Source of the DNA: a virus
Length of the DNA: 28,051 nt
Virus record (IMG/VR): IMGVR_UViG_3300032144_000035
Location: 1 to 28,051 of that record
Strand: one strand, 5' to 3'
Under the pieces are notes generated by a model. The model made no database searches, was not told where the DNA came from, and saw nothing but the letters and a program-made list of their open reading frames with translations. Of the stretch, positions 1-28,051 are shown piece after piece. Both the position numbers and the translations under genes were made by a program. Position 1 is the first letter of the stretch. Every line of letters starts with the position of its first letter.

Positions 1-3000
1 ACCTCATTCGCCTCAGTCATGAGCTCAAAGATGATGTTGCGAAACGCGGCTGCCGACTGCTCCAGCGCGGCTCGCTGCTCCGGCGTGACGGAGCTGAGCA
101 GTTGATTCAACTCCGCTTCCGCCATGACCGGCGAGCGGCCTTGTGGGTTGGCCAGCTCAGCCCGCACCCCCTGATGCGCCCGGTTGTGCCGGAACGTTTC
201 CAGCAACTCGAACGGGATGCCCTGCGCTTCCAGTGGAATGATCACCTGCTCGATGGCTTGCTCTTCGGCCAAGCCTTTGCGTTCCAGCTCGGCCAGCGTC
301 TTGTCAGCCTTTTCCAGCAACGCCATTTTCTCCGGGCCGAGCGTCTTGCGCATCGTCTGCATGTCGCGATAGGCGTCGAGTCCGCCCCGGATGCGTTGCA
401 GTTCGAGCACCTGCCCGAAGGTGTGTTCATCCAACCCGGCCTTCACGACCGGCTGAATCATCTCGTGATAAATCTTTTGCAGGTCCGCCGCATTGCGGTT
501 GTCATCAAACCGCCACTGCTCGTAGAGCTGGTCGAATTCGGACGGACGGCGCGGGTCTTTGCTGCCGAGCCGGCGGCGCACAAAACTTGCGATGTCGCTG
601 GATTGGATGCGCACCTTCGTAAGGAAATCTTTGAACGAATTGCGCGCGGCATCGCGGTAGGCGATCTTCTCATGCAGGATGGATTCGCCCTTCTCAAACC
701 CCTCGCGGGATTGCTGGAGTCGCTCACCCAGCACCGCCTCCGGTCCACGCGCGAGCAAATCCTGCAACGCAAAGAATTCCTCCTTGAACCGCTGCTTCTT
801 GTCCAGGTGCTCGAAGAAGGCTTTGTAAAATTTCGGGGCGCGCTGCTCCAGCAGCCCGGGCGAATTAAGCAGCACGCTGATGGCGTCCGCATACAATTCG
901 ACCGCGCTGTCACGATACTTGATGAACGATTCCGGTGAAGCCGCACGATCCCAGGGCCGCCAATAGGCGGACAGGTCCACGAGTTCCTGCCGGAGTTCCT
1001 TGTTGCTGAGTCCGCCGAACGACCCTTCCAGAAACTTATGCACGCTGCCGACGAGCCGCCCGATGAGGTTGCCGCGCTTCAATGTGCCCTCGGGCATGAA
1101 ATCGTTCACGTGCCCCAGCTCGTGCGCCAGCGTCATGGCCACCTGTTTGGGGTCGGAGAAAATCTTGGCGGACAGCTCGATGTCCTTTCCACGCGCCATG
1201 CCGCGCAGACTGGCTCGCATCCGTTTCACGGCCACTTCGCTGTTCGCAAATTCGCGGGCGAGTCGGAGAATCTCCGGCGTCTCCATCGGGCGGATGGCGT
1301 CCAACCCGCCGAACAACACGGGGAAGTCGGGTGAATCGTGGCCTTTGCTGGCCGCGTCAGCGGTGCCGGTTGGGGCGGAGGTGTGTTCCCCCTTTTCAAC
1401 CGGCAGCGCAATTGTTTCCCACTGTGCGGCGTGCTTGATTTTGTTTCCCCCAAGCTCTTTGAAGTGTTCCGCGATTTGAGAAACCGAGTAATTGTGCAGG
1501 CTTCCGATGCGGGTGGCATTTTCGATGTCACTCACAAATGCAGGCCGCTGGCCACGAAGTGACCGCGCCCAATCAATTGCCTTGGTGTCGCCCGGAATCT
1601 CCCCATTCGCGATTCCGTCTAAAATCTTTTGACCCGTCGCAATCCACTGCTCGCCGGCGCTGCGCAAGGCGGCTGTATCCGGAATTTCCGGATCGCCGGG
1701 CGGGCCGGACTTTCGTGGCGGCGTGCCTGAACGTGTGTCGAGCGCACGAGCGCGTTTCAGTACTTCTCCAAGCGCGGCGTGGGTATTCTCAATGGTGAAC
1801 ACCCCATCACCCGGAATCGAAATTGTGACTTTAGGACGCGGCTTGTCTCCTCTCAAGAGACGCTGCATGACCGACTCTCCAGTCATGGTCGCTTGGGCAA
1901 TGTTACCGCTGGCCGAACCGGCCATCTTCCGCTCCAGTGCGCCGGTTTTGCCATTCGTCGTTTCGGTTTCAATCGTCCACCCAAGGCCGGTTGATTCTCG
2001 AACCCTCAAACGCTGAGCTTTGTCCGGGGAATAGATGTAGAATTCCCGCTTTCCTTGAACCTTTCTCGGCTCGCTATAGAGCAATTCGGGCGCAGGCCCA
2101 AGCTTGGCCAAGGCATCCTCCAACCGCTGCACCAGTTCGGACTTCACTTCCTTCGCAGGTCGCTGGCCTTCGGTGCGCGCCACGGACTGAACTTCTTCGG
2201 CCACCTTCGCGACTGCTGCTGCCGGAGTTTCGACCTTCGGCAGTTCATCGGTGAGCCGTTGCTTGAGCGTGTTTGCTTCGGCCTTCGTCTTGATGTTCTG
2301 CTCGACGATACCGCCATCAACCTCCTTGCCTTCGGCGTTGCGGACCACGCGCTTGACCATCCAACCGCCCCGCGCCGCTCCGGTAGAGCTGACCCAATAA
2401 CGCACGACAGGTGACGGTTCGCCCGTTTTCCCGCTTCCCGGGGGTTTTGGTCCAGAAACGACCTCGCCAGTTGCCCCAGGACGCGTTTTGATTTCCGGCG
2501 AGGGTGAGGACACCGGGCGTTTTGATGGTGTTTCTGCCCCAAGGCCGCGTTGCACGCCCATCAACTGTTCCTTGATATTCGTCAGCCGGGCGAGGTCGGC
2601 GCTCGTCACATTGCCGCGCTGCTCCTGGTTGGTGATCCACCAACGCAAGTCGTTCAACGCGCCGCGAATCGCGCCGGCTCGCGTGGGGCTGTCAAATCCC
2701 CACGGCACACCGTAACCGGCAATGGACGTGTTGGCTTGAAAGATTGATTGCCACTGGCCATCCGGATTCTGGCGCACCTGGAACTCCACCAGCGGTGTCA
2801 CGTTGCCCTTGCTCAGTTTGGCGGAAAGTAAAACCTCGGGTGGGTGCGGTTTGGTTTCCGTCGGCAGCCCGCGCAGGTAGGCCGACCTTTCATCCGGCGT
2901 CAGGGTTTCAAACGGTTTTGGTGGGGCGGCAATCTTTCCTTCCGGAGCGGCCACCATCAGTTCCCGGGTGCGTCGTTCTATCTCAGCTAGGTGTCCCTGC

Positions 3001-4247
3001 AAAACTGCACCACGTTCCGCAATCACCTGCTCTGCTGGTTTGATCTGTTGCGTGCCTTCGGGCGCGACCGCCTTGCCTGCTTCCACTGCCGCCGACAACG
3101 TCTCCGGCGTCACCACTTCCTGCTGGATCGGTTCGCCCGTGGGCGTCTTGGTTTCGAGCACGTCCACGCCGCCCGCTGGTTTCTCGGCGGTGCTCATCCC
3201 GAGCAACTGGCCACCGCGCCCAGCTTCCAGCTCGGCCTTGGCCAAGGCGGGGTCAATCTTCTCCGGATTCACCAACGCTTCACCCCTCGTCGTCTCGACC
3301 GACACCAGCCCTTTCGCTTCCGGCTTCGCCTCACCCGGCGTCACGAGCGTGACCGCTTTCGGGTTGTAAGGATCAAGCGTGGCCTCCACCTGCACCTTGA
3401 GCGCGGCGGGAGATTCCGGCACGGGCACGGGTGGAGTTTGTGGCCGCTTCAATGGAATGTTATAGACTCCCGCCGGGGCGGCAGCGCGTTGGCCGCGCTC
3501 TCTCGGTGCTTGCCAATCACCGGAACTGACCGGGGGCGCGAACTCTGTCGCGTTGACCTGTTGTTCCAGCATGCGACCGGCGGTGCGCGCTGATGGTTCA
3601 ATCAACGGATGCTCCCGCGCCTGTCTGGCGAGCCCATGGGCGCCTTCGGCCATCATGCCCGCTTGCGCTAGCCCGATCACGCTCAGGCGCACAGCTTCTT
3701 GCGTGTCGCCCTCCTTGATCTTCTGCTGCACCGCTTGCACCTGGTCCGGCACTGAACCAGCAAAATCGGAAATGAAATAACCGGCGAGCGCAGTTCCTAG
3801 CTTCTGGCCTGCTGGTGTCGCCAGCACAGACGGATGCACTGCCAGCATGGGCGACGGGGTGGCCATCAATGCGTTGATGATTCCAACATCGCCGCCTGGT
3901 GGTCCGGCCAAGCCGCTAGCTTCCGCCGCTTCGCGCTCGATGTCGGTCGGCCCCAGCAGAGCGCGGCCAAGCTGACTCTCCCGCAATCGCTGGCCTAATG
4001 ACGGGCCTTCACCTGAAAGCGTTTGCTTGACCGGCAGAGTGGCCGCTAGTTGCTGCTGTCGGGTGTAATTGTCCATCGCCAGCTCCTCCCGGCTCGCAGC
4101 GGCGCCGGTCACCTCGCGTGCCAACGCGGACGATTCCCGCTCCTGCTGGGCATACAACCCTTCCACCTGCCGCTGAATGTCAGCGTCATTAAAGTCATCG
4201 GTAAACTCCACCACGCCGATGCCGTCAACTTGGACTTGCTTGGGCAC
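1..4247 (-). CDS. Giant polyvalent-type virion protein with zincin metallopeptidase domain (partial, runs off left edge)
   Basis: An open frame of at least 1415 codons with no stop down to base 1. The start is taken as GTG at 4247 (PKQVQVDGIGVVEFTDD follows), six bases after the preceding gene's TGA and in its frame. Residues 1-250 are helical, then come long Pro/Ala/Glu linkers and small beta regions (about 470-840). From about 990 a metallopeptidase domain appears: FFPVLFGG-like entry, RLAREFANSEVAVKRMR, then AMTLAHELGHVNDFMPEGTL with HELGH at 1042-1046, and ELYADAISVLLNSPG with E1117 as probable third zinc ligand (gluzincin-like). A long coiled-coil region follows. It resembles the large multi-domain phage proteins thought to be injected with the DNA. 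The metallopeptidase is well supported; the overall role is inferred. Confidence 0.85.
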   Translation of the reverse strand, partial: MPKQVQVDGIGVVEFTDDFNDADIQRQVEGLYAQQERESSALAREVTGAAASREELAMDNYTRQQQLAATLPVKQTLSGEGPSLGQRLRESQLGRALLGPTDIEREAAEASGLAGPPGGDVGIINALMATPSPMLAVHPSVLATPAGQKLGTALAGYFISDFAGSVPDQVQAVQQKIKEGDTQEAVRLSVIGLAQAGMMAEGAHGLARQAREHPLIEPSARTAGRMLEQQVNATEFAPPVSSGDWQAPRERGQRAAAPAGVYNIPLKRPQTPPVPVPESPAALKVQVEATLDPYNPKAVTLVTPGEAKPEAKGLVSVETTRGEALVNPEKIDPALAKAELEAGRGGQLLGMSTAEKPAGGVDVLETKTPTGEPIQQEVVTPETLSAAVEAGKAVAPEGTQQIKPAEQVIAERGAVLQGHLAEIERRTRELMVAAPEGKIAAPPKPFETLTPDERSAYLRGLPTETKPHPPEVLLSAKLSKGNVTPLVEFQVRQNPDGQWQSIFQANTSIAGYGVPWGFDSPTRAGAIRGALNDLRWWITNQEQRGNVTSADLARLTNIKEQLMGVQRGLGAETPSKRPVSSPSPEIKTRPGATGEVVSGPKPPGSGKTGEPSPVVRYWVSSTGAARGGWMVKRVVRNAEGKEVDGGIVEQNIKTKAEANTLKQRLTDELPKVETPAAAVAKVAEEVQSVARTEGQRPAKEVKSELVQRLEDALAKLGPAPELLYSEPRKVQGKREFYIYSPDKAQRLRVRESTGLGWTIETETTNGKTGALERKMAGSASGNIAQATMTGESVMQRLLRGDKPRPKVTISIPGDGVFTIENTHAALGEVLKRARALDTRSGTPPRKSGPPGDPEIPDTAALRSAGEQWIATGQKILDGIANGEIPGDTKAIDWARSLRGQRPAFVSDIENATRIGSLHNYSVSQIAEHFKELGGNKIKHAAQWETIALPVEKGEHTSAPTGTADAASKGHDSPDFPVLFGGLDAIRPMETPEILRLAREFANSEVAVKRMRASLRGMARGKDIELSAKIFSDPKQVAMTLAHELGHVNDFMPEGTLKRGNLIGRLVGSVHKFLEGSFGGLSNKELRQELVDLSAYWRPWDRAASPESFIKYRDSAVELYADAISVLLNSPGLLEQRAPKFYKAFFEHLDKKQRFKEEFFALQDLLARGPEAVLGERLQQSREGFEKGESILHEKIAYRDAARNSFKDFLTKVRIQSSDIASFVRRRLGSKDPRRPSEFDQLYEQWRFDDNRNAADLQKIYHEMIQPVVKAGLDEHTFGQVLELQRIRGGLDAYRDMQTMRKTLGPEKMALLEKADKTLAELERKGLAEEQAIEQVIIPLEAQGIPFELLETFRHNRAHQGVRAELANPQGRSPVMAEAELNQLLSSVTPEQRAALEQSAAAFRNIIFELMTEANE

Positions 4248-16145: not shown

Positions 16146-17165
16146 TTACGTCGCGGGCGCGTATTTGCCCTCGCCCTTGGGCGTCCAACAGACGAGCTGC
16201 CAGATGGCCTCGCAAAAGGCTTCATACTTGCCGCCCTCGTAGGGCTTCTGCGTCCAGTTCGGGCGATCACCCCAGCGGAATTCCCACTTGCTCTGGTGCA
16301 GGAACAGGCCGGAGTGCGTGTTGTAGGTCGTGCCGCTCTGGGCCACGCCGTTGGAGTCGAGCTTGTAGTTGCGCCAGCTCGTGACCAGGTCCACCTCGAA
16401 CCCGAACGGGCTCACGTAACGGCTGATGCCGCGATCAAACGCGCCGCCGCGCACCGGAGTCGGATACGCGCCGCCGTTGATCGTGCTCGCCGCTGCCGGC
16501 GTGAACATCGGGAAGTTGTTGAATGCGCGACGCAGGTTCGGGCCGCAGAAGGCCGTCACGGTCTCGTTCTGCTGCGTCGTGTCGCCGATGCCTTGCAGGA
16601 TGTTCAGGATGATGTCCTCGGTCAGCGAAGCCGTGGCCGTGGTGTCGATCTGCGCGGCGGCGGGATACTGTGAGGAATCCACCGGCAGCACGCTTTGCGC
16701 ACTGGCTTGGACCCAGTTCGGCACGCCCCGCGTGAGATAACCGGAAGTGCCCGTGACCCCGACGCGGCATTCCTGCGCGCTGAGACACGCGCTTTCCATG
16801 TCGTTGCGGAGTTCCTCGGTCTGCTTGCGGATTTCCTTGCCGAGTTCGTCGGCCACGCCGGCATTGTTGCCGTAGTCCTGTTGCAGCTTGCCGACGTTCG
16901 CGGCCTTGCTGGAATACTGGATGAGCGCGGAAATCTGCACGCGATCATCGCCGGCACTGGTGCCACCGACCACGGTGGTGGCGTCCGCATGGGAATTGCG
17001 GGCGGGCGCCTTGTAATTTTCGGCCTGGTAATCATACCGGGCCTGGGCTGGCTTGCTGCCCAGCGGGCACCACGCCAGGAGGGGGGCGTTGATCATGGCC
17101 ACGTTGGTGACCATGCTTGCCCACTCCTCTTTTTTACCCACTACTGCGGAGTAATTGAGACTCAT
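16146..17165 (-). CDS. Major capsid protein, SU10-like family
   Basis: A 339-residue protein read as the HK97-fold shell subunit. After a short start (MSLNYSAVVG) comes VTNVAMINAPLLAWCPLG (19-36) and a YDYQAENYKAP segment. This matches the opening of SU10-type major head proteins, which usually read TNV..I.TP...IG and then E/YWQxD. A central helical region (KEIRKQTEELRNDMES, about 110-125) corresponds to the spine helix. C-terminal beta strands include YVSPFGFEVDLV. Length is normal for the family. It follows the scaffold gene by 44 bases. No Shine-Dalgarno is visible; the leader reads AACACTTGAA, as in the next gene. Confidence 0.8.
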   Translation of the reverse strand: MSLNYSAVVGKKEEWASMVTNVAMINAPLLAWCPLGSKPAQARYDYQAENYKAPARNSHADATTVVGGTSAGDDRVQISALIQYSSKAANVGKLQQDYGNNAGVADELGKEIRKQTEELRNDMESACLSAQECRVGVTGTSGYLTRGVPNWVQASAQSVLPVDSSQYPAAAQIDTTATASLTEDIILNILQGIGDTTQQNETVTAFCGPNLRRAFNNFPMFTPAAASTINGGAYPTPVRGGAFDRGISRYVSPFGFEVDLVTSWRNYKLDSNGVAQSGTTYNTHSGLFLHQSKWEFRWGDRPNWTQKPYEGGKYEAFCEAIWQLVCWTPKGEGKYAPAT

Positions 17166-17209: not shown

Positions 17210-18400
17210 TCACGCGCCGCTCAGGCTGAGCGAGGCGTAACGGTCCATGTCCTTCGTCGTGGCCGTGCCGTTGTTCAGGCGTTCCACGATCTCTTCCCGT
17301 TCGGATTTCTTGGGCAATGCCGCCACACTCGTGCGCGGGGCTCCGGGAGCACTGCGCGGGGTGGGCGGAACTGGAGCGGGAGCGGCTGCCGGGGGCGGCG
17401 TTGTCGCCGTGACCGTGCCGGGGCTGCTGCGCGATAGCCGATGTGCCACGCCCTCCGCCACCATCTGCGGCCATGCGGGCCCGAGATTGCGGACGGTGGG
17501 GTTTTGCTGGACGTAGGTTGCGAACGCCTTCCACGCCGCCGATTTCGGGTCGTTGAGTCCGGGAAGAATCTTCCCGGCTTCAATGAACGAATTGGCTTCG
17601 CGGGCCAGCTCGGCTTTGCGGAGCGGCGCCTGTTGCAGCGTCACTTCGCAACCGGTCTGCACGTTCACCAGCAGTTCGCTGATTTGCGCATCCGTCGCAT
17701 CATCCAGCGGCGTGCCGTCGATGTTGGCGACCTTTTGGGCCTTCAACGCTTCCAGCACGGCGGGCTTGTCACCGGCACTCATCTTCAAGATCAGCTTTGT
17801 GGCCAGGCTCTTGTCCCGGACGGCCTGCATGGTGCTGGCGTCCACCTGGTCGAAAGTTCGGCAATTCGCCAACGCCCCGGGCACGCTCGGCGTGTCGGTC
17901 GGCGCTGCCGCTGGATCGGCGGCGGGCGGATTGGGCGGGGTCGCAATCGTTGCGTCCGCCGGGGGAGTGTTCTTGGCTTGGAGTTCGGCGACTTTGGCTT
18001 CCAGTTCCTTGACCTTGGCGCGGGCCTCTTTGCGGGCTTCGCGTTCGGCCTGCAACGCACGTTTGCCGGCGTCATTCAATGACGCCAACACTTCGGCGCT
18101 CGGCTCGGGGTCTTCATCGGCAGGGACGGTGGCCGCAGGCGCGGGAGATTCGGAAACAGCAACTTGCTGTTCGACCGGTGGTGATTCTGGACCGGGCGGA
18201 ACCGCAGGCGCGGCGGCGGGTTCGGGTGGGGGCGTGAGATTGGCCGTGATCGCCAGTGCGGCGTAACGGTCAAAATCTGCCGGGGTGGCAAGGGGATTCG
18301 CTGCCGGCGCGCTCGGCGCGGCGGTTTGCGGAGCTGGCACACTGGCCGGGGGCACAGTTCCCGGGGTGGCGCTCGGCGCCACGACAATTGGTTCAGGCAT
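17210..18400 (-). CDS. Scaffold-like protein, Pro/Ala-rich with coiled coil
   Basis: A 396-residue protein placed directly before the major capsid gene, where head scaffolding proteins lie in many tailed phages. The ATG at 18400 is chosen; a TTG three codons earlier is possible and neither has a clear ribosome site. Residues 1-110 are Pro/Ala-rich and disordered. A charged coiled coil follows (about 116-144, AEREARKEARAKVKELEAKV). After a second Pro/Ala linker comes a helical domain (about 180-330), then a third Pro/Ala linker and a short C-terminal helix. The motif DRYAALAI (44-51) near the start recurs as DRYASLSL (386-393) at the very end. Composition and position support scaffolding; no sequence signature proves it. 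Confidence 0.7.
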   Translation of the reverse strand: MPEPIVVAPSATPGTVPPASVPAPQTAAPSAPAANPLATPADFDRYAALAITANLTPPPEPAAAPAVPPGPESPPVEQQVAVSESPAPAATVPADEDPEPSAEVLASLNDAGKRALQAEREARKEARAKVKELEAKVAELQAKNTPPADATIATPPNPPAADPAAAPTDTPSVPGALANCRTFDQVDASTMQAVRDKSLATKLILKMSAGDKPAVLEALKAQKVANIDGTPLDDATDAQISELLVNVQTGCEVTLQQAPLRKAELAREANSFIEAGKILPGLNDPKSAAWKAFATYVQQNPTVRNLGPAWPQMVAEGVAHRLSRSSPGTVTATTPPPAAAPAPVPPTPRSAPGAPRTSVAALPKKSEREEIVERLNNGTATTKDMDRYASLSLSGA

Positions 18401-18427
18401 ACGTGACAACGCACGGCGTCGTCACGA

Positions 18428-18629: not shown

Positions 18630-18938
18630 TTACGTCTTGGGCTTCTCTCTGGCCTCACGCCACAACGCGTCCAGCTCGTTGCGCAAATCGCGCAGCATCC
18701 CGATACGCCCGCGCAACCGATGCACTTCGGCATCGGGCAGGCCGGCATCCGTCAACGGTGTCAGCTCCACGCGGATATTGGCATCAATCAATCCGAGCAG
18801 GCCGGTCATCAGCGCGTCGTCCGGCAGCGTCGTGCTGAGCCGCTCCTTGAGCGCGAGCAACTTCGCATCCCACTGCGGATCGTTCGTTGATGGAAATTTT
18901 GCGTCCGCTCCGTTCGATTTCCTCAGCCAGTTCAGCAT
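18630..18938 (-). CDS. Small helical hypothetical protein
   Basis: A 102-residue charged helical protein. It opens with MLNWLRKSNGADAKFPSTND and ends in a coiled-coil-like helix (LRGRIGMLRDLRNELDALWR, residues about 75-94). The start overlaps the methyltransferase stop by 7 bases. The stop is the last gene end before the only long intergenic gap. Function unknown; it could be a minor head or assembly protein. Confidence 0.65.
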   Translation of the reverse strand: MLNWLRKSNGADAKFPSTNDPQWDAKLLALKERLSTTLPDDALMTGLLGLIDANIRVELTPLTDAGLPDAEVHRLRGRIGMLRDLRNELDALWREAREKPKT

Positions 18939-19576
18939 GCTCTAACCTTCTCGTTCATCAGGAACTTTCCCCGACGCCCATTTGAGAACCCTGTGTGACC
19001 GATGCGAGCCAGCACGTCCGCGTCGGCATCGCTCCACGCAATCAGCATTGAAGGTGCGCCAGAGGATTCGCCCTCGATGACTTTGGGCGATGACTCGTAG
19101 GTGTGGCCGGTTTTCTCGGGGTCTTTGTGTTTGCTCATTCCCGCGCCACACCGGGCGCAGCAGAATTCCCAGAACGCAACCCGCTTTTCGATGAATAGGA
19201 ATGCAGTTGCCCCGTCCCAAATGTGCGGGAAGAACGCCTTGGTTTCGGTGCGGGCGAAAATCAAACTGATCCCACAACCGTGCGCGGCAGCTTTCTTCAT
19301 CCACTTCGGCATTTGCGCGCCATACGGAGGATTTGTGAAAGGCCGGCCCCGCCACGGCTTCAAGAGCCCGTTGTCGAAAATTGTGTAAGTGCGCGGAGCG
19401 ATTGCCCAGGGGGGGGCTACAGGCGAGCACGGGTCCAAATCAAACGGCCCGAGGTCGTTCAAAATCCATCGTGGCGTCAGCCATTCTTCTTTCGCGTCGG
19501 TATTGTCGTGCGCGAAACCATCTTCATTCGCAGATGCTCGCTCAACAACTGACGCACCGAACAAATCAACGGTCAC
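18932..19576 (-). CDS. DNA N6-adenine methyltransferase, phage Dam type
   Basis: A 214-residue enzyme predicted to methylate adenine in DNA using S-adenosylmethionine, most likely protecting phage DNA from host restriction. The GTG start overlaps the portal stop as GTGA. Seen in order: EEWLTPRWILNDLG (30-43), FDLDPCSP (45-52), the DNGL segment (68-71), then the catalytic TNPPYG (81-86), and ARTETKAFF (108-116). This is the layout of the phage Dam family (PF05869 as I know it). An extra CCARCGAGM stretch at 139-147 could form part of a metal site. It overlaps the next gene by 7 bases. Placement between portal and scaffold genes is unusual. Confidence 0.92.
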   Translation of the reverse strand: MTVDLFGASVVERASANEDGFAHDNTDAKEEWLTPRWILNDLGPFDLDPCSPVAPPWAIAPRTYTIFDNGLLKPWRGRPFTNPPYGAQMPKWMKKAAAHGCGISLIFARTETKAFFPHIWDGATAFLFIEKRVAFWEFCCARCGAGMSKHKDPEKTGHTYESSPKVIEGESSGAPSMLIAWSDADADVLARIGHTGFSNGRRGKFLMNEKVRAC

Positions 19577-21876
19577 TGCGTCCCCTCCGGGTTCACGCCG
19601 ATGCGTCCGATCTGTTTGTTCTGCTGCTGCGTCACCCCGATGAATTTCAGATTCTCCAGCCACTTGAGCAGCAGCTTGCTGAACCGCTCGTTCGGATTGC
19701 GCGGCAACGTCTGCGCGATCATCTGCGCCTGTTGCGCGCCCACGACAGCCACCAACGCCTCGTCATCGAGCGCGGAGAGATACACCGGATTCTGTGTCAC
19801 AATTTCTTGCGTGTATTGCAGCAGCCCGGTCGCCGTCGGGTCTTTGTCGTCGAGATACGTCGGTGCGTTGCCCAGGAACATCTGTGCGATCTCCGCCTTC
19901 GCTTTGTCGCGCAGCGCGGCGCTCGCTTCGGGCACGGGTCGCACGAGCAACTTCGCCCGCCGCGGGCCGAGGATGCTGCGCGTCATGTCCGCCGCCCACG
20001 CGCCCCGATTCACCACGCCCAGCACATCGTTGGGCAGCACGATCTTGTTCATCGCCTCCACACGCTTCATCTCCATTTCCGGGTCGAACTCGCGCACGTC
20101 GAAGTCGAGCACGCACGAAAGCAATCCCGGCACGTCGCGATGCGCATCCAGCCAGCCAGGTGGCGCTCCGGTCACCTGCGCGAACTCCGCATCACTGCCG
20201 TGTTTCTGGTAGAGACACAACACCTGCTTGAAAGCGAGCGTCCACGCAACGGTGTGCCGGCGCACGCCTTGTTCCTGCTTGAGTTGCTGCCGCACCATCG
20301 GCACGTCTTCGCTCAGCGAACCAAAGCGGTTGTCCAATCGCTTCGTGAGTTGCGACACCGCTTCCAGTCCGTTGATCATCCCGGCGCGGTTCGATAAATC
20401 CATCAGCGCCGGCTCACGATCTTTGCGCGTGTAATTCTTTACGCCGGGCGCATACGCATACGTGCGGTCCTGCCCGGTCGGCGATTCGTAAACATTCATC
20501 GGCGGCAGCACTGACAGCGAGGCGAGGTCCAGCGTGCTGTCGAGATGTCCCTTGATGAGATTCTGGTCGGTGTGCGCCTTCTCCGTCACACCCCGGGAAC
20601 TGGTGAGACTGCGCGACCAGCGTTCGCGCAAGCAGCCGACATACGGCATGTCACCGTCCGGCGCTTCCACCACGTCATGCTTCGCATACAAATCACCCGC
20701 GTCACCAGTGCTGTTCGGACGCTTCGTGATGTCACGATGAAACGTCGTGCAATACACCGCCGGAATGCCGTCCTCGTCGGCAGCGCGATAAATCGCGTGC
20801 ACCACTTCAATCGCACCTTCACCCACCTTGCCGCTCGATGTCGTGGCGGTCTGCGTCGCTGTGCTGGTCTGGCCGAGCAAGCCCGCCACGCCGACGGGAT
20901 TACCGGTCGGCAATGTCGTGCTCGTCCATTGCCCTTTGCGGCGGATGGCTTCCACTGTCCACAGACTGTCGTAATCGTCAGTGATCAACCGACCTCGCAC
21001 TTCCGCCTCGCTGAGACGTTCCACCTGGAACACGATCTCGTTCTCGCTGGTGAGTTCCGGCGGCACGAAGGCTTCCTCGTAAGGTTTCAGCGCCTCGATG
21101 CTTGGTTCATTCTTGCAGAGATACGGGAGCGGCACGCTGGCTTTCCGCTCTTCGCTGCGCAACGCGATGACCGCCTTGCGCGCTTGCGCCTTCGTGGTCT
21201 TGGGTGCGCGGGCGCGCAAATCTTCCGGCAACTGGTTCTGCACATACCAGTCATACCAGCCTTGCAGGAATTCCACGGCCTGCTCTTCCAGCGTCGGGTC
21301 CAGGATGAGCACCGGCAGTTGATTCCACGGACTGTTCGGCGGTGCTTGCGCCGCCATCTGTTCGAGGTCGGAAAATTTCAGCGTGTAACGCTTCAAGCCC
21401 AGTTCCCGTTTCCAGCGCGGCGCGAGCAGACACCAGCCAATGTGTTCCTGATAATCGGCGCTCAGCTCCACTTCATCGACGAGCTGGCTCAACATCTTGG
21501 TGAACACGAGCCACTCGACCAGCGCCACGGCATACGCGCTTTCCTCGCTGCTGGTCGCGCCCGGGTTCACCATCGCGCGCCAGAACGCGGCGGTGAGCAT
21601 CGCCTTCCGTTCGTCGATCACGTCATCCACCACGTAGGGCCGGCAATCGCTGGCGTTTTCCCACGGGCGGGCCTTGCCGTTGGGGTCGCCGGGGATGTCA
21701 TGCTTCTTGCCGTCGGTGAACTGGCCGGGCCACCGGCAAAAGCGGATGTCATCGAGCCATTGCAGTCCGCCTTGATTCGCAGGCCGGCAACGGTTGAAGG
21801 TTTCTTGCAGCAGCGGAAGGTTCGGCGTGCCGTCGGCGCGCAGGTAGCCAGTGGTGGAGGTCATGTGATTTATCAT
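19573..21876 (-). CDS. Portal protein (head-tail connector ring)
   Basis: A 767-residue protein that I read as the portal, the twelve-subunit ring through which DNA enters and leaves the capsid. The start is the ATG in an ATGA overlap; MTSTTGY four codons later is an alternative. Support: its size (podovirus portals of the P22 class exceed 700 residues), its place between the terminase and the scaffold/capsid genes, a mixed N-terminal domain (CRPYVVDDVIDERKAMLTAA, 56-75 approx.), and a long helical C-terminal half with a Gln-rich end (VTQQQNKQIGRIG). No short catalytic motif exists for portals, so the call rests on context, size and general resemblance. The stop overlaps the methyltransferase start as GTGA. 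Confidence 0.78.
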   Translation of the reverse strand: MINHMTSTTGYLRADGTPNLPLLQETFNRCRPANQGGLQWLDDIRFCRWPGQFTDGKKHDIPGDPNGKARPWENASDCRPYVVDDVIDERKAMLTAAFWRAMVNPGATSSEESAYAVALVEWLVFTKMLSQLVDEVELSADYQEHIGWCLLAPRWKRELGLKRYTLKFSDLEQMAAQAPPNSPWNQLPVLILDPTLEEQAVEFLQGWYDWYVQNQLPEDLRARAPKTTKAQARKAVIALRSEERKASVPLPYLCKNEPSIEALKPYEEAFVPPELTSENEIVFQVERLSEAEVRGRLITDDYDSLWTVEAIRRKGQWTSTTLPTGNPVGVAGLLGQTSTATQTATTSSGKVGEGAIEVVHAIYRAADEDGIPAVYCTTFHRDITKRPNSTGDAGDLYAKHDVVEAPDGDMPYVGCLRERWSRSLTSSRGVTEKAHTDQNLIKGHLDSTLDLASLSVLPPMNVYESPTGQDRTYAYAPGVKNYTRKDREPALMDLSNRAGMINGLEAVSQLTKRLDNRFGSLSEDVPMVRQQLKQEQGVRRHTVAWTLAFKQVLCLYQKHGSDAEFAQVTGAPPGWLDAHRDVPGLLSCVLDFDVREFDPEMEMKRVEAMNKIVLPNDVLGVVNRGAWAADMTRSILGPRRAKLLVRPVPEASAALRDKAKAEIAQMFLGNAPTYLDDKDPTATGLLQYTQEIVTQNPVYLSALDDEALVAVVGAQQAQMIAQTLPRNPNERFSKLLLKWLENLKFIGVTQQQNKQIGRIGVNPEGTQ

Positions 21877-22136
21877 GCCTCCCCGCCAGTCGCACACCGG
21901 GATGGGATGGGTCGCAGCAGGAAGATGATCGCCGTCACGTATTTGTCCTGCCGCTCGCCGGGGAGACGGTGCTTCAACTGTGGATGAGCGTCAACGACTT
22001 TCTTGAACGTCTCCTTGTCCGCGATGTCGAGCAACGCCATCGCCGTGGCCCGGCGCACACGAGCGCCGTGCTCACGCTGGAACTTCGCCAACGCCCGCCG
22101 GTCCTCCGGTGACAATAATTTCGGGTCAAGGTTCAT
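21873..22136 (-). CDS. Small helical hypothetical protein preceding portal
   Basis: An 87-residue mostly helical basic protein (LLSPEDRRALAKFQREHGAR near the N-terminus). It ends with ATAIIFLLRP-like hydrophobic residues and a short polar tail. Both ends overlap neighbours as ATGA, including the portal start. No family recognised. A small terminase or portal-associated role is possible only by position. Confidence 0.6.
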   Translation of the reverse strand: MNLDPKLLSPEDRRALAKFQREHGARVRRATAMALLDIADKETFKKVVDAHPQLKHRLPGERQDKYVTAIIFLLRPIPSRCATGGEA

Positions 22137-23114: not shown

Positions 23115-23304
23115 GTATTCCAATCGGGTGATAATTCACAATCGCCGCCGCGCAGCGCACCTCGGCGATGGTCAGCGTGATGTTCACATGGGCTTTCGGA
23201 TTCCAGCTCGGATCCCAGAGGTCCGCAAAACCTTCATCCACCGCTTCCTTGAGCACGGCGGTCGCGAGCCGTTTCGTGGCCCGCGACCGGTCCTTGCGAT
23301 TCAC
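23086..23304 (-). CDS. Small hypothetical phage protein
   Basis: A 72-residue protein read from a GTG that overlaps the VWA stop as GTGA. The N-terminus is very basic (NRKDRSRATKRLATAV), the middle is Trp-containing (LWDPSWNPK), then comes a beta/alpha stretch ending in HANRNRTDH. The basic start could contact nucleic acid. No family recognised. Its 3' end overlaps the next gene by about 29 bases. Confidence 0.55.
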   Translation of the reverse strand: MNRKDRSRATKRLATAVLKEAVDEGFADLWDPSWNPKAHVNITLTIAEVRCAAAIVNYHPIGIHANRNRTDH

Positions 23305-23966
23305 ATCTCATCCTCCGGCACCACGCCCGCTTTCACCTGCGCTTCATGGTCTGCCGGCGAGTAAGCCATGCAGACTGCTTCGCCGGAGCGCATTCGCCGC
23401 AGGTTGGATGAGGTGGAGGTGAACGCCGCCGCGGTGCCCGCTGCGTTGTGCGCATACGTCATCGCGTTCGCGGTGGCCACGCCCATCCGGGAGGCGGTCT
23501 TGATGGCGTCCTGATTCGCGCCCAGGAACACGAACTCCCACGAATACTTATCCCGCTGGTGAGAGATCATCTCGAACACCTTGCCGTGATCATATTCATG
23601 ACTGGCGTTCTCCTGCCCGTCAGTGATGATGACGAACACCACCTTGCCCGCCCGCTCGGTTTCACTCTTGGCTTGCAACCGGGCGCCTGTGTTCACGATG
23701 GCGCGACCGATGGCATCCAACAGGGCGGTGTTGCCACGCGGCACGAACGTGGCGGGCGTCAGGTCGGCGGCAGCTTTCACGTCTTGCGCGTTGATGAGCG
23801 TTTCAAACTCGTGATCGAACTGGTGCAACGTGATGCTGGCCGTGCCGGCAGCGATGCGCTGGTCCGCGAGAAAGCGGTTGAAGCCGCCGATGGTGTCGCT
23901 CGCCACGCTGCTCATGGAGCCGCTGCGGTCGAGGACGATGGTGATGTCAGTGTGATTCTTGTTCAT
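23301..23966 (-). CDS. von Willebrand factor A-domain protein
   Basis: A 221-residue protein that is almost all one VWA domain, a Rossmann-like fold that binds a metal and mediates protein contacts. The metal-ion-dependent adhesion site is complete: DRSGS at 13-17, the Thr in RGNTALLD (T80) and the Asp in ITDGQEN (D116). There is no signal peptide or membrane segment, so it probably acts in the cytoplasm or inside the virion. An AGGAAAG ribosome site precedes the ATG, in a 55-base gap after the terminase nuclease gene. Its role in a phage is unknown to me; by context it could help packaging or assembly. It ends with a GTGA overlap onto the next gene. Confidence 0.9.
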   Translation of the reverse strand: MNKNHTDITIVLDRSGSMSSVASDTIGGFNRFLADQRIAAGTASITLHQFDHEFETLINAQDVKAAADLTPATFVPRGNTALLDAIGRAIVNTGARLQAKSETERAGKVVFVIITDGQENASHEYDHGKVFEMISHQRDKYSWEFVFLGANQDAIKTASRMGVATANAMTYAHNAAGTAAAFTSTSSNLRRMRSGEAVCMAYSPADHEAQVKAGVVPEDEM

Positions 23967-24021
23967 TGTCTTTCCTGTTTGTTGGTTCTTGTCTTGCTCC
24001 GTTATCTTCGTTTGCTCCTGT

Positions 24022-24870
24022 TCACAACCCGAACGGTGTGCCGTAGGCGCCCAGCGCGCCCGGTGGCACGTATTCGATGCCCGATTTGCTCAAGCCTTTG
24101 AGGCAATCAATCGGGTCTTTGCACGCGCCTTTCAATCCATCCGTGCCGGTGAACGTCCGCAGCGCCCAGATGGTGTTGGTGCAGGCGCGCGAGATATACC
24201 ACTTGGGGCAGTTCATCGGCGTCACGTCCGCGTTGGCGTCCCAGCCGTCGTTGAGCCAGTTGTTCACCCAACCCTTGCCTTCCTCGATGCCGCAATCCGC
24301 CCCCGCTGTGAAATCCAATCCCGGGCAGATGAGTTTTCCGTTGCTGCGGATCGGGTCCGCCATGTGTTCCAGATACGTGCGCGCTTCCTCGTCGCTCGGC
24401 ACGCTCGTGCCGGCAGGCCGGGGATCCATTTTCCGGTCGAAAACTTTCCACGCGCCGTCACCCATCTCCCAGATGCCTTCGGCGTTCGGTCGCCAGCCTT
24501 CGCGTTCCAGAATCAGCCGCTTGTAATCGTTGAACGCGCGTCCGCCGCCGCTGGTCTGCGCCGGGCCGGCTTTGCCATCAGGCTTCGGGCCGGGTAACGC
24601 CCATTCACCCAACTCCTCATCCGGCCACTCGGCGAACGTCCATTTCGTTCCCATCGCATCCACTCCGGTCCAGTTCATGAACCAGTTCCGGTCGCCGTGC
24701 GGGTCGGCCCACATCCACACCGTCATGGTATTCACCGGCGGGATGCGTTCGGGCGCGACCAGGTGTGGCTCGCCGAAATTCGGGAACGCCTTGCGCGCCA
24801 GTTTCGTCGGCCAACCCCACAGCCGCTCCAGCGCGAACGCCAGCTTCTCGCCTTGGATGACGACGCTCAT
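24022..24870 (-). CDS. Terminase large subunit, RNase H-like nuclease domain as a separate protein
   Basis: A 282-residue protein that matches the C-terminal nuclease half of phage large terminases, the part that cuts concatemeric DNA. The first beta strand carries the metal-binding Asp in MWADPHGDRNWF (53-64, D56). The second strand reads VDAMGTKWTFAEWPD (70-84) with an acidic residue at E81. The C-terminal signature PKWYISRACTNTIWALRTF (222-240) followed by KDPIDCLKGL (251-260) supplies the third acidic residue, D255. This order, spacing and wording are those of a TerL nuclease. The N-terminal 45 residues may be the inter-domain linker. The start overlaps the previous stop (ATGA). About 55 bases separate it from the next gene. 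Together with the ATPase gene the total is about 630 residues. Confidence 0.85.
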   Translation of the reverse strand: MSVVIQGEKLAFALERLWGWPTKLARKAFPNFGEPHLVAPERIPPVNTMTVWMWADPHGDRNWFMNWTGVDAMGTKWTFAEWPDEELGEWALPGPKPDGKAGPAQTSGGGRAFNDYKRLILEREGWRPNAEGIWEMGDGAWKVFDRKMDPRPAGTSVPSDEEARTYLEHMADPIRSNGKLICPGLDFTAGADCGIEEGKGWVNNWLNDGWDANADVTPMNCPKWYISRACTNTIWALRTFTGTDGLKGACKDPIDCLKGLSKSGIEYVPPGALGAYGTPFGL

Positions 24871-25166
24871 TTGCGCCCTCCGGCATCGCGGGCGGCCCGG
24901 CGGAACTCATGCGGCAGATGCAACACCGTGATGAGCATCCGACCTTCGAACACGAACACGTGCTCGCCGAAGATGCGCGTGTTGTTGCCCTTCTCGTGGG
25001 TGAGATAAAGGTGGGACAGATACCGATGCAGCCGGCCCTTCGTCGCCGCGTGCGACACTCCCACGGCCAGCGCCTTGTCCGCCATGCGCGTGAGCGCAGC
25101 AGCATTCCAGCCGAGCCGTTCCTTGGCCCGCTCTTTCGCGTGAGCTGTGATTTGCGCTTCCATCAT
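24867..25166 (-). CDS. Conserved small phage protein (HAKER-type) between terminase halves
   Basis: A 99-residue protein whose ATG overlaps the upstream stop as ATGA. It opens with ITAHAKERAKERLG, followed by a helical region and a C-terminal beta hairpin (RIFGEHVFVFEG, MLITVLHLP). The layout of a His-Ala-Lys/Arg-rich helix followed by beta strands recalls small alpha/beta phage proteins and, loosely, the DUF4258/BrnT-like RNase-toxin fold. I would not assert RNase activity. It sits immediately before the terminase nuclease gene and is coupled to it by an ATGA overlap. Confidence 0.65.
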   Translation of the reverse strand: MMEAQITAHAKERAKERLGWNAAALTRMADKALAVGVSHAATKGRLHRYLSHLYLTHEKGNNTRIFGEHVFVFEGRMLITVLHLPHEFRRAARDAGGRK

Positions 25167-25432
25167 TTCGACATATCGCGGGGCGGGTGCGCCGTGTGCC
25201 CCCACGCTTTCAGGAACGCTCCCACCAGCGACCATGCGCTTAGCTTGCGGCGGCGAAAATTGGTCACCCGGGCGTGCCGCCCGTTGGTGGGTGTGTATTC
25301 TGCGTGCAACGTTCCGATGTAGTTGCCCACATCGAGCGTGCCGGTGCAGTCGTTCACGATTTCCATCGTTCCAATCGTCCGCGCCTTGCGCTCGTCGCCC
25401 CGTGGAATGAGCTGGATGGTGATTCGCAGCAT
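25163..25432 (-). CDS. Conserved small phage protein between the two terminase halves
   Basis: An 89-residue basic protein starting MLRITIQLIPRGDERKARTI. The start is the ATG two bases after the terminase ATPase stop; upstream in-frame starts lie inside that gene. The N-terminal half is predicted beta-rich (RITIQLIP, GTMEIVND, YIGTLHAEY) and the C-terminal part is basic with SLVGAFLKAWGH. Small proteins of this appearance recur next to terminase genes in tailed phages, as I recall them, but no function is known to me. It ends in an ATGA overlap with the next gene. Confidence 0.7.
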   Translation of the reverse strand: MLRITIQLIPRGDERKARTIGTMEIVNDCTGTLDVGNYIGTLHAEYTPTNGRHARVTNFRRRKLSAWSLVGAFLKAWGHTAHPPRDMSK

Positions 25433-25434
25433 GG

Positions 25435-26481
25435 TCAGTTGCGCGTTGCCCGCAGGTATTCCCCCGCCGCCGTGCTTTCGATGATGGCCTGCACGTTCGT
25501 GTAAGGGTTGAACATCGTCGGCAACGCCACGGCGAATCGCCGGCCCGAACCGCCGCCGCTTTGGATCACGAACGGCACATGGCCACGCGGACAGCCGCGC
25601 ACCAATTCCTGTTCCGGCGGCAGCAACCATTCGCCCCACTTCCACGTGCGATGCCACCAGTCCCATTCCACGGCGCGACACGGGATCACTTCCAGAATCG
25701 TCCCGGCCTCGATGTATTCGGCCACCGTCTCGGTATAACCGCCGACAGGTGTAAAACCGCCCAACAGGAATCCGCCCTTCTTGTGGACGCGAAAGCGTAA
25801 CGTCTTGAGCAGTTCGGCGGGCGCTTCCTCGTCCCAGGTCGCGATGTCCGCTTCGCCACCCTCGACGATGTTCTTGTCCTGCTCGTAACCTTTGTAGGTC
25901 GGGAACAACGCGGCGCTATGGTTGGGCAGGATGAAACACGATTCACTGAATCCGGTCGCCTCCTTGTAACTGATCTTAGTCGTGATGCCGCGGGATTTGA
26001 CCGTCCGCAGATTGGCCGGCAGGTATTTGAAAGCCGGCTTCTGGATGTAGCGCACGCTTGTGAGTTCCGATTGCGAGAACGCGCGCCACTCGCGGTGGGG
26101 CTTGTCGGCCAATTGCCCGACGCCAACCTTCGCCTGGATGTCGCTCTTGGCGCTGCCGTTGCCGCCGAGCATCACCACGTCGTTGGCGGGTTGCGTCTGT
26201 TTCCAGTTCGCGGGTGCGACCGACGTGCTGAACTGGCCCGGCACGTATGTGCCGGCGAGCAAAGCCCGCACCGTCTTCACCGGCGGTTGCTCCCACCCAT
26301 AGATCAGCGGCTCGTGGATTTCCTGCTGGATGCTCCATTCGCGTTTGCGATGGTATTCATCCACGGCACTGGCGCCTTTGGCCTGCGCGAGCCGCACGAT
26401 CCATTGCGAGTCCGGCATGGGCAGCGTGGGCCAGACGGTCCACTCCCACGCGCCCACTTTGATTTTTTGCAGGTCGGTCAC
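25435..26481 (-). CDS. terL: Terminase large subunit, ATPase domain only
   Basis: A 348-residue DNA-packaging ATPase. The GTG start forms a GTGA overlap with the preceding stop; the frame is open further upstream but only as a shadow of that gene. Motifs visible: a Walker A-like loop VVMLGGNGSAKS (102-113, with Ala where Gly is usual), a Walker B strand ADIATWDEEAP (211-221) with the catalytic Glu after the Asp, and a coupling-motif-like segment LLGGFTPVGGYTE (239-251). The protein stops soon after the ATPase fold, and no RNase H nuclease domain follows in this frame. Typical TerL proteins are 450-600 residues with both domains. The missing nuclease is encoded by the gene at 24022-24870, two genes downstream. 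The ATPase assignment is firm; whether the split is native or a disrupted gene is open. Confidence 0.88.
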   Translation of the reverse strand: MTDLQKIKVGAWEWTVWPTLPMPDSQWIVRLAQAKGASAVDEYHRKREWSIQQEIHEPLIYGWEQPPVKTVRALLAGTYVPGQFSTSVAPANWKQTQPANDVVMLGGNGSAKSDIQAKVGVGQLADKPHREWRAFSQSELTSVRYIQKPAFKYLPANLRTVKSRGITTKISYKEATGFSESCFILPNHSAALFPTYKGYEQDKNIVEGGEADIATWDEEAPAELLKTLRFRVHKKGGFLLGGFTPVGGYTETVAEYIEAGTILEVIPCRAVEWDWWHRTWKWGEWLLPPEQELVRGCPRGHVPFVIQSGGGSGRRFAVALPTMFNPYTNVQAIIESTAAGEYLRATRN

Positions 26482-26738
26482 ACCGCTTGTGGTTGTGATG
26501 CGCGCACGCAATCCGGCACAGCGGCCTCCGTCGCACCGTATGCAGTCGGTGGTGGTGGCACGACATGCGTCTTGTTCACGGCGGTCGCCATGAATTTGGC
26601 CTCGGTCGCTTCCGGGTTGGCGTAGTAGTCGTCCAGGCCGGTGATCAGCTCGCGCCGGCTGGCGAACACCACACGCTGACAGCCCACACGGCACACAAAG
26701 CCGTTGAGCACGGGTTCAATGGTCACTTCTCGGGTCAT
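26478..26738 (-). CDS. Small hypothetical protein upstream of terminase
   Basis: An 86-residue protein. The first half (to about residue 45) looks like a small beta-rich domain with CRVGCQRVVF in the centre; the last 40 residues are low-complexity and Pro/Ala rich. The ATG is preceded by an AAGGAAAA Shine-Dalgarno-like sequence about 8 bases upstream, one of the clearer ribosome sites in the window. That fits with a 21-base gap from the previous gene and so no coupling. The stop overlaps the terminase GTG start as GTGA. No family recognised. Confidence 0.65.
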   Translation of the reverse strand: MTREVTIEPVLNGFVCRVGCQRVVFASRRELITGLDDYYANPEATEAKFMATAVNKTHVVPPPPTAYGATEAAVPDCVRASQPQAV

Positions 26739-26759
26739 TGGTATTTTCCTTGTTGATGG

Positions 26760-26945
26760 TTAACCGAAAATTTTCTCGAACAGGCTCTTGGCCTCTTCAT
26801 TTTCTTGCTGGCCGGCTTTTCGTCCGCTTTCAAACGCGTCAATGATGACCTTTTCCAGCGACGCCGGGCGCAGTTCGATCTTCTCCGCCGCGAACAGCTT
26901 GCGGTTCTGATTCTCGATGAGCCGCAGGTATTCGTAAGCGGTCAT
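26760..26945 (-). CDS. Small hypothetical phage protein
   Basis: A 61-residue acidic-basic helical protein with no recognised family. The start is the ATG in the ATGA overlap with the gene upstream; an in-frame start 45 bases earlier is possible but would run far into that gene. The sequence (AYEYLRLIENQNRKLFAAEK near the N-terminus, FEKIFG at the end) predicts one or two amphipathic helices. Its place just before the terminase is where small terminase subunits often lie, but it is shorter than usual for one and shows no helix-turn-helix I can name. Confidence 0.65.
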   Translation of the reverse strand: MTAYEYLRLIENQNRKLFAAEKIELRPASLEKVIIDAFESGRKAGQQENEEAKSLFEKIFG

Positions 26946-27289
26946 GGCCGGTTCAAAAGTTCCGCGATGAAGTTGGCCACGTCTTCGCACTCACACGTGG
27001 CCACGTCTTCGCCGATCTTCGAGCGCACGGCCCACGGCGCCCGGTTCTCGCCCAGGGCGGGTTTATCCTTGAGCTGCCGGGCCACCGCACGGAACGGGCG
27101 GAAGTCAGCCTGGAATCGCCGGGCTTCGGAACTCGTTCCCGACTTCACAAGCTGTTCGCACTCCGGACAGCGGGTGTCGTTGCACATCGGGCAACGCCAG
27201 AAAGTGTTGGTGCATCGGGCGCACTTGCTCAGTTCCTTCGGGACATTCCAGTGCCGGCACAATTTCTGTCGTTCAGCTTCGGTTCTCAT
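26942..27289 (-). CDS. Cys-rich putative zinc-binding protein
   Basis: A 115-residue protein of unknown function. The N-terminal 45 residues hold three CxxC pairs (C23/C26, C33/C36, C41/C44) plus C10, H13 and further polar residues, the look of a zinc ribbon or double zinc knuckle. The C-terminal half is basic and then acidic, with CEC near residue 100. The ATG overlaps the helicase stop by ATGA, so the two are probably translated together. That position suggests a role in DNA metabolism or in helping the helicase or terminase, but this is inference from context only. Confidence 0.75.
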   Translation of the reverse strand: MRTEAERQKLCRHWNVPKELSKCARCTNTFWRCPMCNDTRCPECEQLVKSGTSSEARRFQADFRPFRAVARQLKDKPALGENRAPWAVRSKIGEDVATCECEDVANFIAELLNRP

Positions 27290-28051
27290 GGGTCTTCATC
27301 GGTTTGGGGTGGCGTGCCCGGTGGTGCGTATTTGGATTGCTCACCTTTGGCTGGGTCTTTGACTTTGTGGGCCTTCATCCACTCATTGAAATCCTCGAAC
27401 GCGGTGCAGCTCTTGTGGAAGAGCAGCCAGCAATCGCCCGTCGGCCCGAACCGGTTTTTCTCCCAGAGCAGGTTCACGCGCACCGGTCTTTTGCTCCAGT
27501 CCTGCTGATAGACCGCGTCCAACATGGCGTCGAATTCATCTTCCTGCGCTTTGGATTGTTTGGGCTTGTAGATGAACCCAACGAGGTCGGCGTCCTGCTC
27601 AATCGCGCCGGAATCTTTCAGGTCGGACAGGCGTGGCGGGCGTTGATTTTCCTTTTCCCAATCTCGGTTCATCTGCGCGAGGATGACGAACGGGACGTTC
27701 AGCAATTTGCTTGTGGCGAAGAGCAGGCCGGAGATGTAAGCCAGCTCCTGCACCCGGTCGCCGGCCCAATCACGCTTGGCCGAGCGGAGCAATTGCAGGT
27801 AGTCCACCACAAACAGCCGGATGTCGTATTGCCGCTGCATCCGGCGGGCCTTGGCGACCAGTTCTTCGATGGTGCAACGCGGGGTGTCGTCGATGTAGAT
27901 TTCCGCCTTCGCCAGTTCTCCGCACACGTTCACGAGCGGGGTCATGTCTGCGGCGGAGGCAAAGCCGGTTCGCCACCGCTGCTTGTCGCCGCGGGCACGT
28001 TGCCACACCATGCGATCCGTCAACGCTTCTGCTGCCATTTCCAGCGAGAAG
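27286..28051 (-). CDS. dnaB: Replicative DNA helicase, DnaB type (C-terminal part, runs off right edge)
   Basis: The last 254 residues of a hexameric replicative helicase that would unwind the phage DNA ahead of the fork. The frame is open to the window edge and begins FSLEM, the conserved segment just after the Walker A region of DnaB; Walker A itself is outside the window. Visible motifs, counted from that F, are the Walker B strand LFVVDYLQLL (79-88), the AQMNRD segment (125-130), the LKDSGAIEQDADLVGFIYKP stretch (144-163) and the KNRFGPTG arginine-finger region (198-205). All match the RecA-like DnaB C-terminal domain. The last ~30 residues are a polar Pro-rich tail. The stop overlaps the next start by ATGA. 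Family identity is secure; the true start cannot be seen. Confidence 0.95.
   Translation of the reverse strand, partial: FSLEMAAEALTDRMVWQRARGDKQRWRTGFASAADMTPLVNVCGELAKAEIYIDDTPRCTIEELVAKARRMQRQYDIRLFVVDYLQLLRSAKRDWAGDRVQELAYISGLLFATSKLLNVPFVILAQMNRDWEKENQRPPRLSDLKDSGAIEQDADLVGFIYKPKQSKAQEDEFDAMLDAVYQQDWSKRPVRVNLLWEKNRFGPTGDCWLLFHKSCTAFEDFNEWMKAHKVKDPAKGEQSKYAPPGTPPQTDEDP

Follow-up and report, generated by a model that had tools for sequence, protein, structure and literature searches.

We report a viral contig in which the ATPase and the nuclease of the large terminase (TerL) are encoded by two separate, intact genes with two further genes, designated M1 and M2, situated between them. Most likely M1 and M2 entered terL where its two domains join, and the separate halves would now work in trans. 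The stretch of DNA analysed here (the window, in full) is one linear IMG/VR virus record of 28,051 bases; it is a part of an incomplete genome, of which about 28 kb is seen.

Gene neighbourhood

In the order of transcription on the minus strand, a gene for a DnaB-like helicase is followed by three small genes, the ATPase gene, M1, M2, the nuclease gene, a gene for a von Willebrand factor A (vWA) domain protein and several small genes. Beyond these small genes lie portal-like, then Dam-like methylase, scaffold-like and SU10-type major capsid genes. The features that matter for the argument are as follows.

27286-28050, minus strand: DnaB-like helicase gene, truncated by the contig end
26478..26738, minus strand: small gene 5′ of the ATPase half, with a counterpart (47% identity over 75 aa) conserved ahead of the fused terL of the L001 group of relatives
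25435..26481, minus strand: TerL ATPase (motor) half, 348 aa, with a GTG start overlapping the stop of the upstream gene
25163..25432, minus strand: M1, 89 aa, phrog_8231-like small protein (weak match, 2e-4), starting 2 nt past the ATPase stop
24867..25166, minus strand: M2, 99 aa, phrog_16724 family (PHROG E 1.4e-12), overlapping M1
24877..24881, minus strand: Shine-Dalgarno-like GGAGG within the 3′ end of M2, six nt ahead of the ATG of the nuclease
24022..24870, minus strand: TerL nuclease (cutter) half, 282 aa, overlapping M2
23301-23966, minus strand: vWA domain gene (phrog_7371, 9e-60), immediately following the nuclease half
19573-21897, minus strand: portal-like gene (phrog_332 head-tail adaptor, weak match)
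18932-19663, minus strand: Dam-like DNA methylase frame, overlapping the end of the portal-like gene
17210-18409, minus strand: scaffold-like gene
16146-17165, minus strand: SU10-type major capsid gene

A TerL gene is expected near portal and head genes; the portal-like, scaffold-like and major capsid genes are all located downstream of both halves. Among the related loci examined, vWA matches were seen only in two (L066 and L070), in both upstream of terL. At the other end of the window (3-4247, minus strand) a protein of >1,400 aa, truncated by the contig end, bears AHELGH, a zinc-metallopeptidase-like motif, and looks like a large virion-associated protein. None of the anti-phage defence models matched M1, M2 or their neighbours.

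Identification of the two halves

The genes at 25435-26481 and 24022-24870 are confirmed as the ATPase and nuclease halves of TerL. The original prediction, made from the sequence, had proposed this division with two genes in between; homology, predicted folds and the intact coupled frames all agree with it. Searches of the window halves themselves against Pfam, PHROGs and NCBIfam recognised neither as a terminase. As these direct searches were uninformative, relatives were used instead, so that the profile searches recommended for both proteins led to terminase through the Terminase_6N and phrog_2 matches of the relatives. Among the aligned ATPase halves of relatives, 31 of 51 matched Pfam Terminase_6N and 18 matched phrog_2 ‘terminase large subunit’; two nuclease halves of relatives matched phrog_2 as well. 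In one relative (alignment A2) the ATPase half matched Pfam Intein_splicing weakly (E 0.0018).

The protein encoded at 25435-26481 has the N-terminal P-loop ATPase domain of a TerL, with Walker A GGNGSAKS (residues 106-113), Walker B WDEEAP (216-221) and then an FTP coupling segment (243-245); the motifs and coordinates first read from the sequence, a Walker A-like loop, a Walker B and a coupling motif with no nuclease domain behind them, were borne out. It is 52-67% identical to the corresponding N-terminal part of the fused TerLs of its clade. The residue before the Walker A lysine, usually G, is A in the window (position 111); 7 of 92 relatives share the A and another 27 have S. Among the closest relatives the G111A change is rare. 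The AlphaFold model, built on the relatives' alignment, has a mean pLDDT of 93.2, and the closest solved structures are TerL ATPase domains (P74-26, Z 16.4; T4, 15.6; Sf6, 15.5; D6E, 15.4). Matches to a DNA helicase, KaiC and NAT10 reflect general P-loop similarity and rank under most TerLs.

The protein encoded at 24022-24870 has a nuclease domain of the RNase H fold, conserved acidic residues included, and is up to 71% identical to the C-terminal part of fused TerLs. The signature on which the original prediction relied (D56, E81 and KDPID), the only one that it saw in this gene, is supported both by conservation and by fold: among 92 relatives the catalytic acids are kept at D56 in 92, E81 in 88, D252 in 92 and D255 in 91. 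The AlphaFold model (mean pLDDT 93.0, built on the relatives' alignment) retrieved terminase nucleases at all of ranks 1-33 of the structural search, D6E having Z 17.5, P22 14.0 and HK97 12.6. The C-terminus of this half is GTPFGL; a terminal Tyr is present in 78 of 92 relatives.

Mapped onto the D6E TerL structure, the ATPase half spans residues 10-233 and the nuclease half residues 232/233-416. The halves thus abut end to end and the cut coincides with the interdomain boundary. A TerL normally carries both domains in one polypeptide; here they are in two intact frames, with stop codons and M1 and M2 between.

Relatives with a fused terL

Scans of viral contigs and of contigs of prokaryotic genomes produced about 160 loci encoding the nuclease half; relatives of this lineage occur in MAGs of Verrucomicrobiota, among others. 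The nuclease part was present at 159 loci. In 143 of these it is preceded by an open frame of at least 250 codons; another 13 are truncated at the edge of their contig, and the remaining three (L009, L119 and L127) contain frame shifts. These three at first seemed split; each has a single frame shift inside a domain, without new starts or genes, of a kind common in metagenome assemblies.

The ATPase and the nuclease are found in one frame, in the same order, in 118 distinct fused proteins, and the pairing of the two is therefore not a matter of chance. At no other locus is a gene inserted at the split site. In 92 non-redundant relatives the sequence is continuous across it: the closest relative, L010, reads AIIESVQGSTLEFALERLWGW, and the window reads AIIESTAAGEYLRATRN-stop ... 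MSVVIQGEKLAFALERLWGW. A second scan, with the ATPase half, yielded no further split case; the M2-nuclease junction, sought in viral contigs, was in no other record; and the phage-genome and plasmid collections held no close relative. Conserved splitting in relatives, suggested earlier as a possible support for a native two-protein terminase, was not seen, every relative examined being fused. The split state is therefore, by sequence comparison, private to this contig within the data searched and, most simply, is probably derived.

Both halves are closest to L010 (67% identity for the ATPase, 71-73% for the nuclease), and the identity rankings of the two halves over 50 relatives agree (Spearman 0.69). 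Given the same nearest relative and the agreeing rankings, we conclude that both halves descend from one gene.

Constraint on the halves

All catalytic residues are intact in both halves, and nothing points to relaxed constraint. At the 50 columns that at least 95% of relatives conserve (21 in the ATPase and 29 in the nuclease), the window does not deviate. Within the close clade the window has private changes at 8 of 113 positions of the ATPase and 2 of 80 of the nuclease, compared with 2-9 and 0-10 in fused relatives. In comparisons with fused relatives dN is well below dS and third-position changes dominate, a pattern that mostly reflects the time before the split.

These observations bear on the possibility that the split is real and non-functional, in a defective phage or in one with its terminase supplied elsewhere in the genome or by a helper. 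We regard this as rather unlikely, given that the catalytic residues are all kept, that deviations are not in excess, that all 31 minus-strand frames tested are free of premature stops and that the nuclease gene has its own matched start site, GGAGG. A search for a second terminase returned only the two halves and chance matches in the window, which is smaller than the whole genome; the complete TerL elsewhere that the original prediction had named as counter-evidence was thus absent from these 28,051 bases. What speaks for a non-functional split is that only about 28 kb of an incomplete genome is seen, that split relatives were not found and that there is a discouraging precedent: T4 gp17 split at its linker kept the ATPase and nuclease activities and completely lost DNA translocation (PMC3012670). 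A working split also has against it the single record, the GTPFGL end lacking Tyr and the rare G111A.

Gene junctions and integrity of the contig

The upstream gene and the ATPase gene overlap by GTGA, and both M1/M2 and M2/nuclease overlap by ATGA. The original prediction of intact frames with coupled ATGA/GTGA starts is therefore right for three junctions; the ATPase/M1 junction, TGA-CC-ATG, has a 2-nt gap and is not strictly an overlap. The two intervening genes are complete as predicted, M1 and M2 both being whole frames.

This arrangement makes a chimera or misassembly of the metagenomic contig improbable. The junctions fall precisely where one gene ends and the next begins, ATGA overlaps and a Shine-Dalgarno site are present, and four intact coupled frames are not expected by chance. 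Moreover, both halves share their nearest relative and base composition is uniform, GC and GC3 of M1 and M2 being like those of both flanking halves. A chimera would fit the fact that the arrangement comes from a single IMG/VR record and that its M2-nuclease junction recurs in no other. Fused relatives together with an assembly break had been named in advance as evidence against a native split; the relatives are indeed fused, and no assembly break is visible in the contig.

The intervening genes

M1 and M2 belong to families unrelated to TerL. The M2 family, phrog_16724, comprises small proteins with conserved H, R and NN residues and is found free-standing in phages of several hosts. In Cellulophaga phage phi19:1, the HNH endonuclease gp041 (L164:2668-3273) carries an M2-like domain after its HNH part, and in another locus (L083) an M2 relative is near an HNH gene; the M2 family may thus travel with HNH nucleases. 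A homing endonuclease is absent from the M1-M2 insert, and an arrival of the insert in company with a homing nuclease is a possible origin, offered as an idea only. In the related records searched, neither family was found except for an M1-like gene (partial match) in L026, which ends where the fused terL starts. The family search with M1 matched nowhere at all, so non-detection of M1 in relatives is no proof of its absence. A search for flanking repeats marking an insertion event gave only short repeats at chance level. Most simply, M1 and M2 are cargo genes.

Some phages have a group I intron or an intein in terL, Mic1 among them. Bastillevirinae (PMC11878797), Jug phages (PMC12363816) and Campylobacter phage IBB_35 (PMC3322345) provide cases of group I introns in this gene, and M1-M2 could likewise be carried within a self-splicing intron, the mature mRNA encoding one TerL. 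That reading is very improbable: no Rfam intron match was found at E up to 1 in 24000-27000, whereas the same search detects the T4 nrdB group I intron at 9e-7 as a positive control, and the insert is almost wholly coding with coupled starts, so that a non-coding core would not fit. An intein between the halves is ruled out by the stop codons and in-frame starts.

Comparison with known systems

The single-chain TerLs of D6E, P74-26, P22, T4 (gp17), Sf6 and HK97 are like the window in their domains, domain order, catalytic residues and predicted folds; they are one chain, whereas the window encodes two proteins with two genes between. The intron- and intein-bearing terL genes of Bastillevirinae, Jug phages, IBB_35 and Mic1 have an interrupted coding sequence, as the window does; however, splicing restores a single protein in them, and no intron or intein was detected here. 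In nrdA of Aeromonas phage Aeh1 the insertion of a homing endonuclease turned one enzyme into two cooperating proteins. The insert in the window has no such endonuclease, though the M2 family adjoins or is fused to HNH in two phages.

A parallel in gene order, which speaks for action in trans, comes from plaque-forming Arthrobacter phages of cluster AY. Their TerL annotation assigns the ATPase to one ORF and the nuclease to the ORF after it (PMC12820723), as in genes 2 and 3 of BlueShadow. The AY ORFs are consecutive (PMC12820723), whereas the window has two unrelated genes between them, and the lineage of the window, with its SU10-type capsid, appears unrelated to the AY phages as that paper describes them. 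Split TerL itself thus already has a precedent; new here are the genes between the halves and the lineage. The nuclease domain has been called universal in Caudovirales TerL (PMC7824862); this statement is not contradicted, the domain being present in the window on another chain.

Proposed mechanism and implications

In the reading that we favour, insertion of M1 and M2 at the interdomain boundary split terL into two genes. One mRNA would be produced, from which ribosomes would translate the ATPase, M1, M2 and the nuclease in turn. The ATPase and nuclease proteins would then bind each other non-covalently, on the portal, via the domain interface of an ordinary TerL; the assembled motor would pump DNA, with the nuclease half cutting it when packaging is initiated and again when it ends.

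For annotation, the case illustrates that terminases can escape notice, either half alone being unrecognised by Pfam, PHROG and NCBIfam models. In current models of T4-type motors, a flexible covalent hinge transmits the force of the ATPase to the nuclease domain that grips the DNA. A packaging motor whose ATPase and nuclease/translocation domains are separate proteins with no covalent hinge, M1 or M2 possibly serving as additional subunits that bridge the halves, is a reading for which we see the balance as even. The present lineage, with TerL divided at the boundary where splitting gp17 stopped translocation and with both halves intact, provides a natural test of whether the covalent hinge is required or the domain interface suffices.
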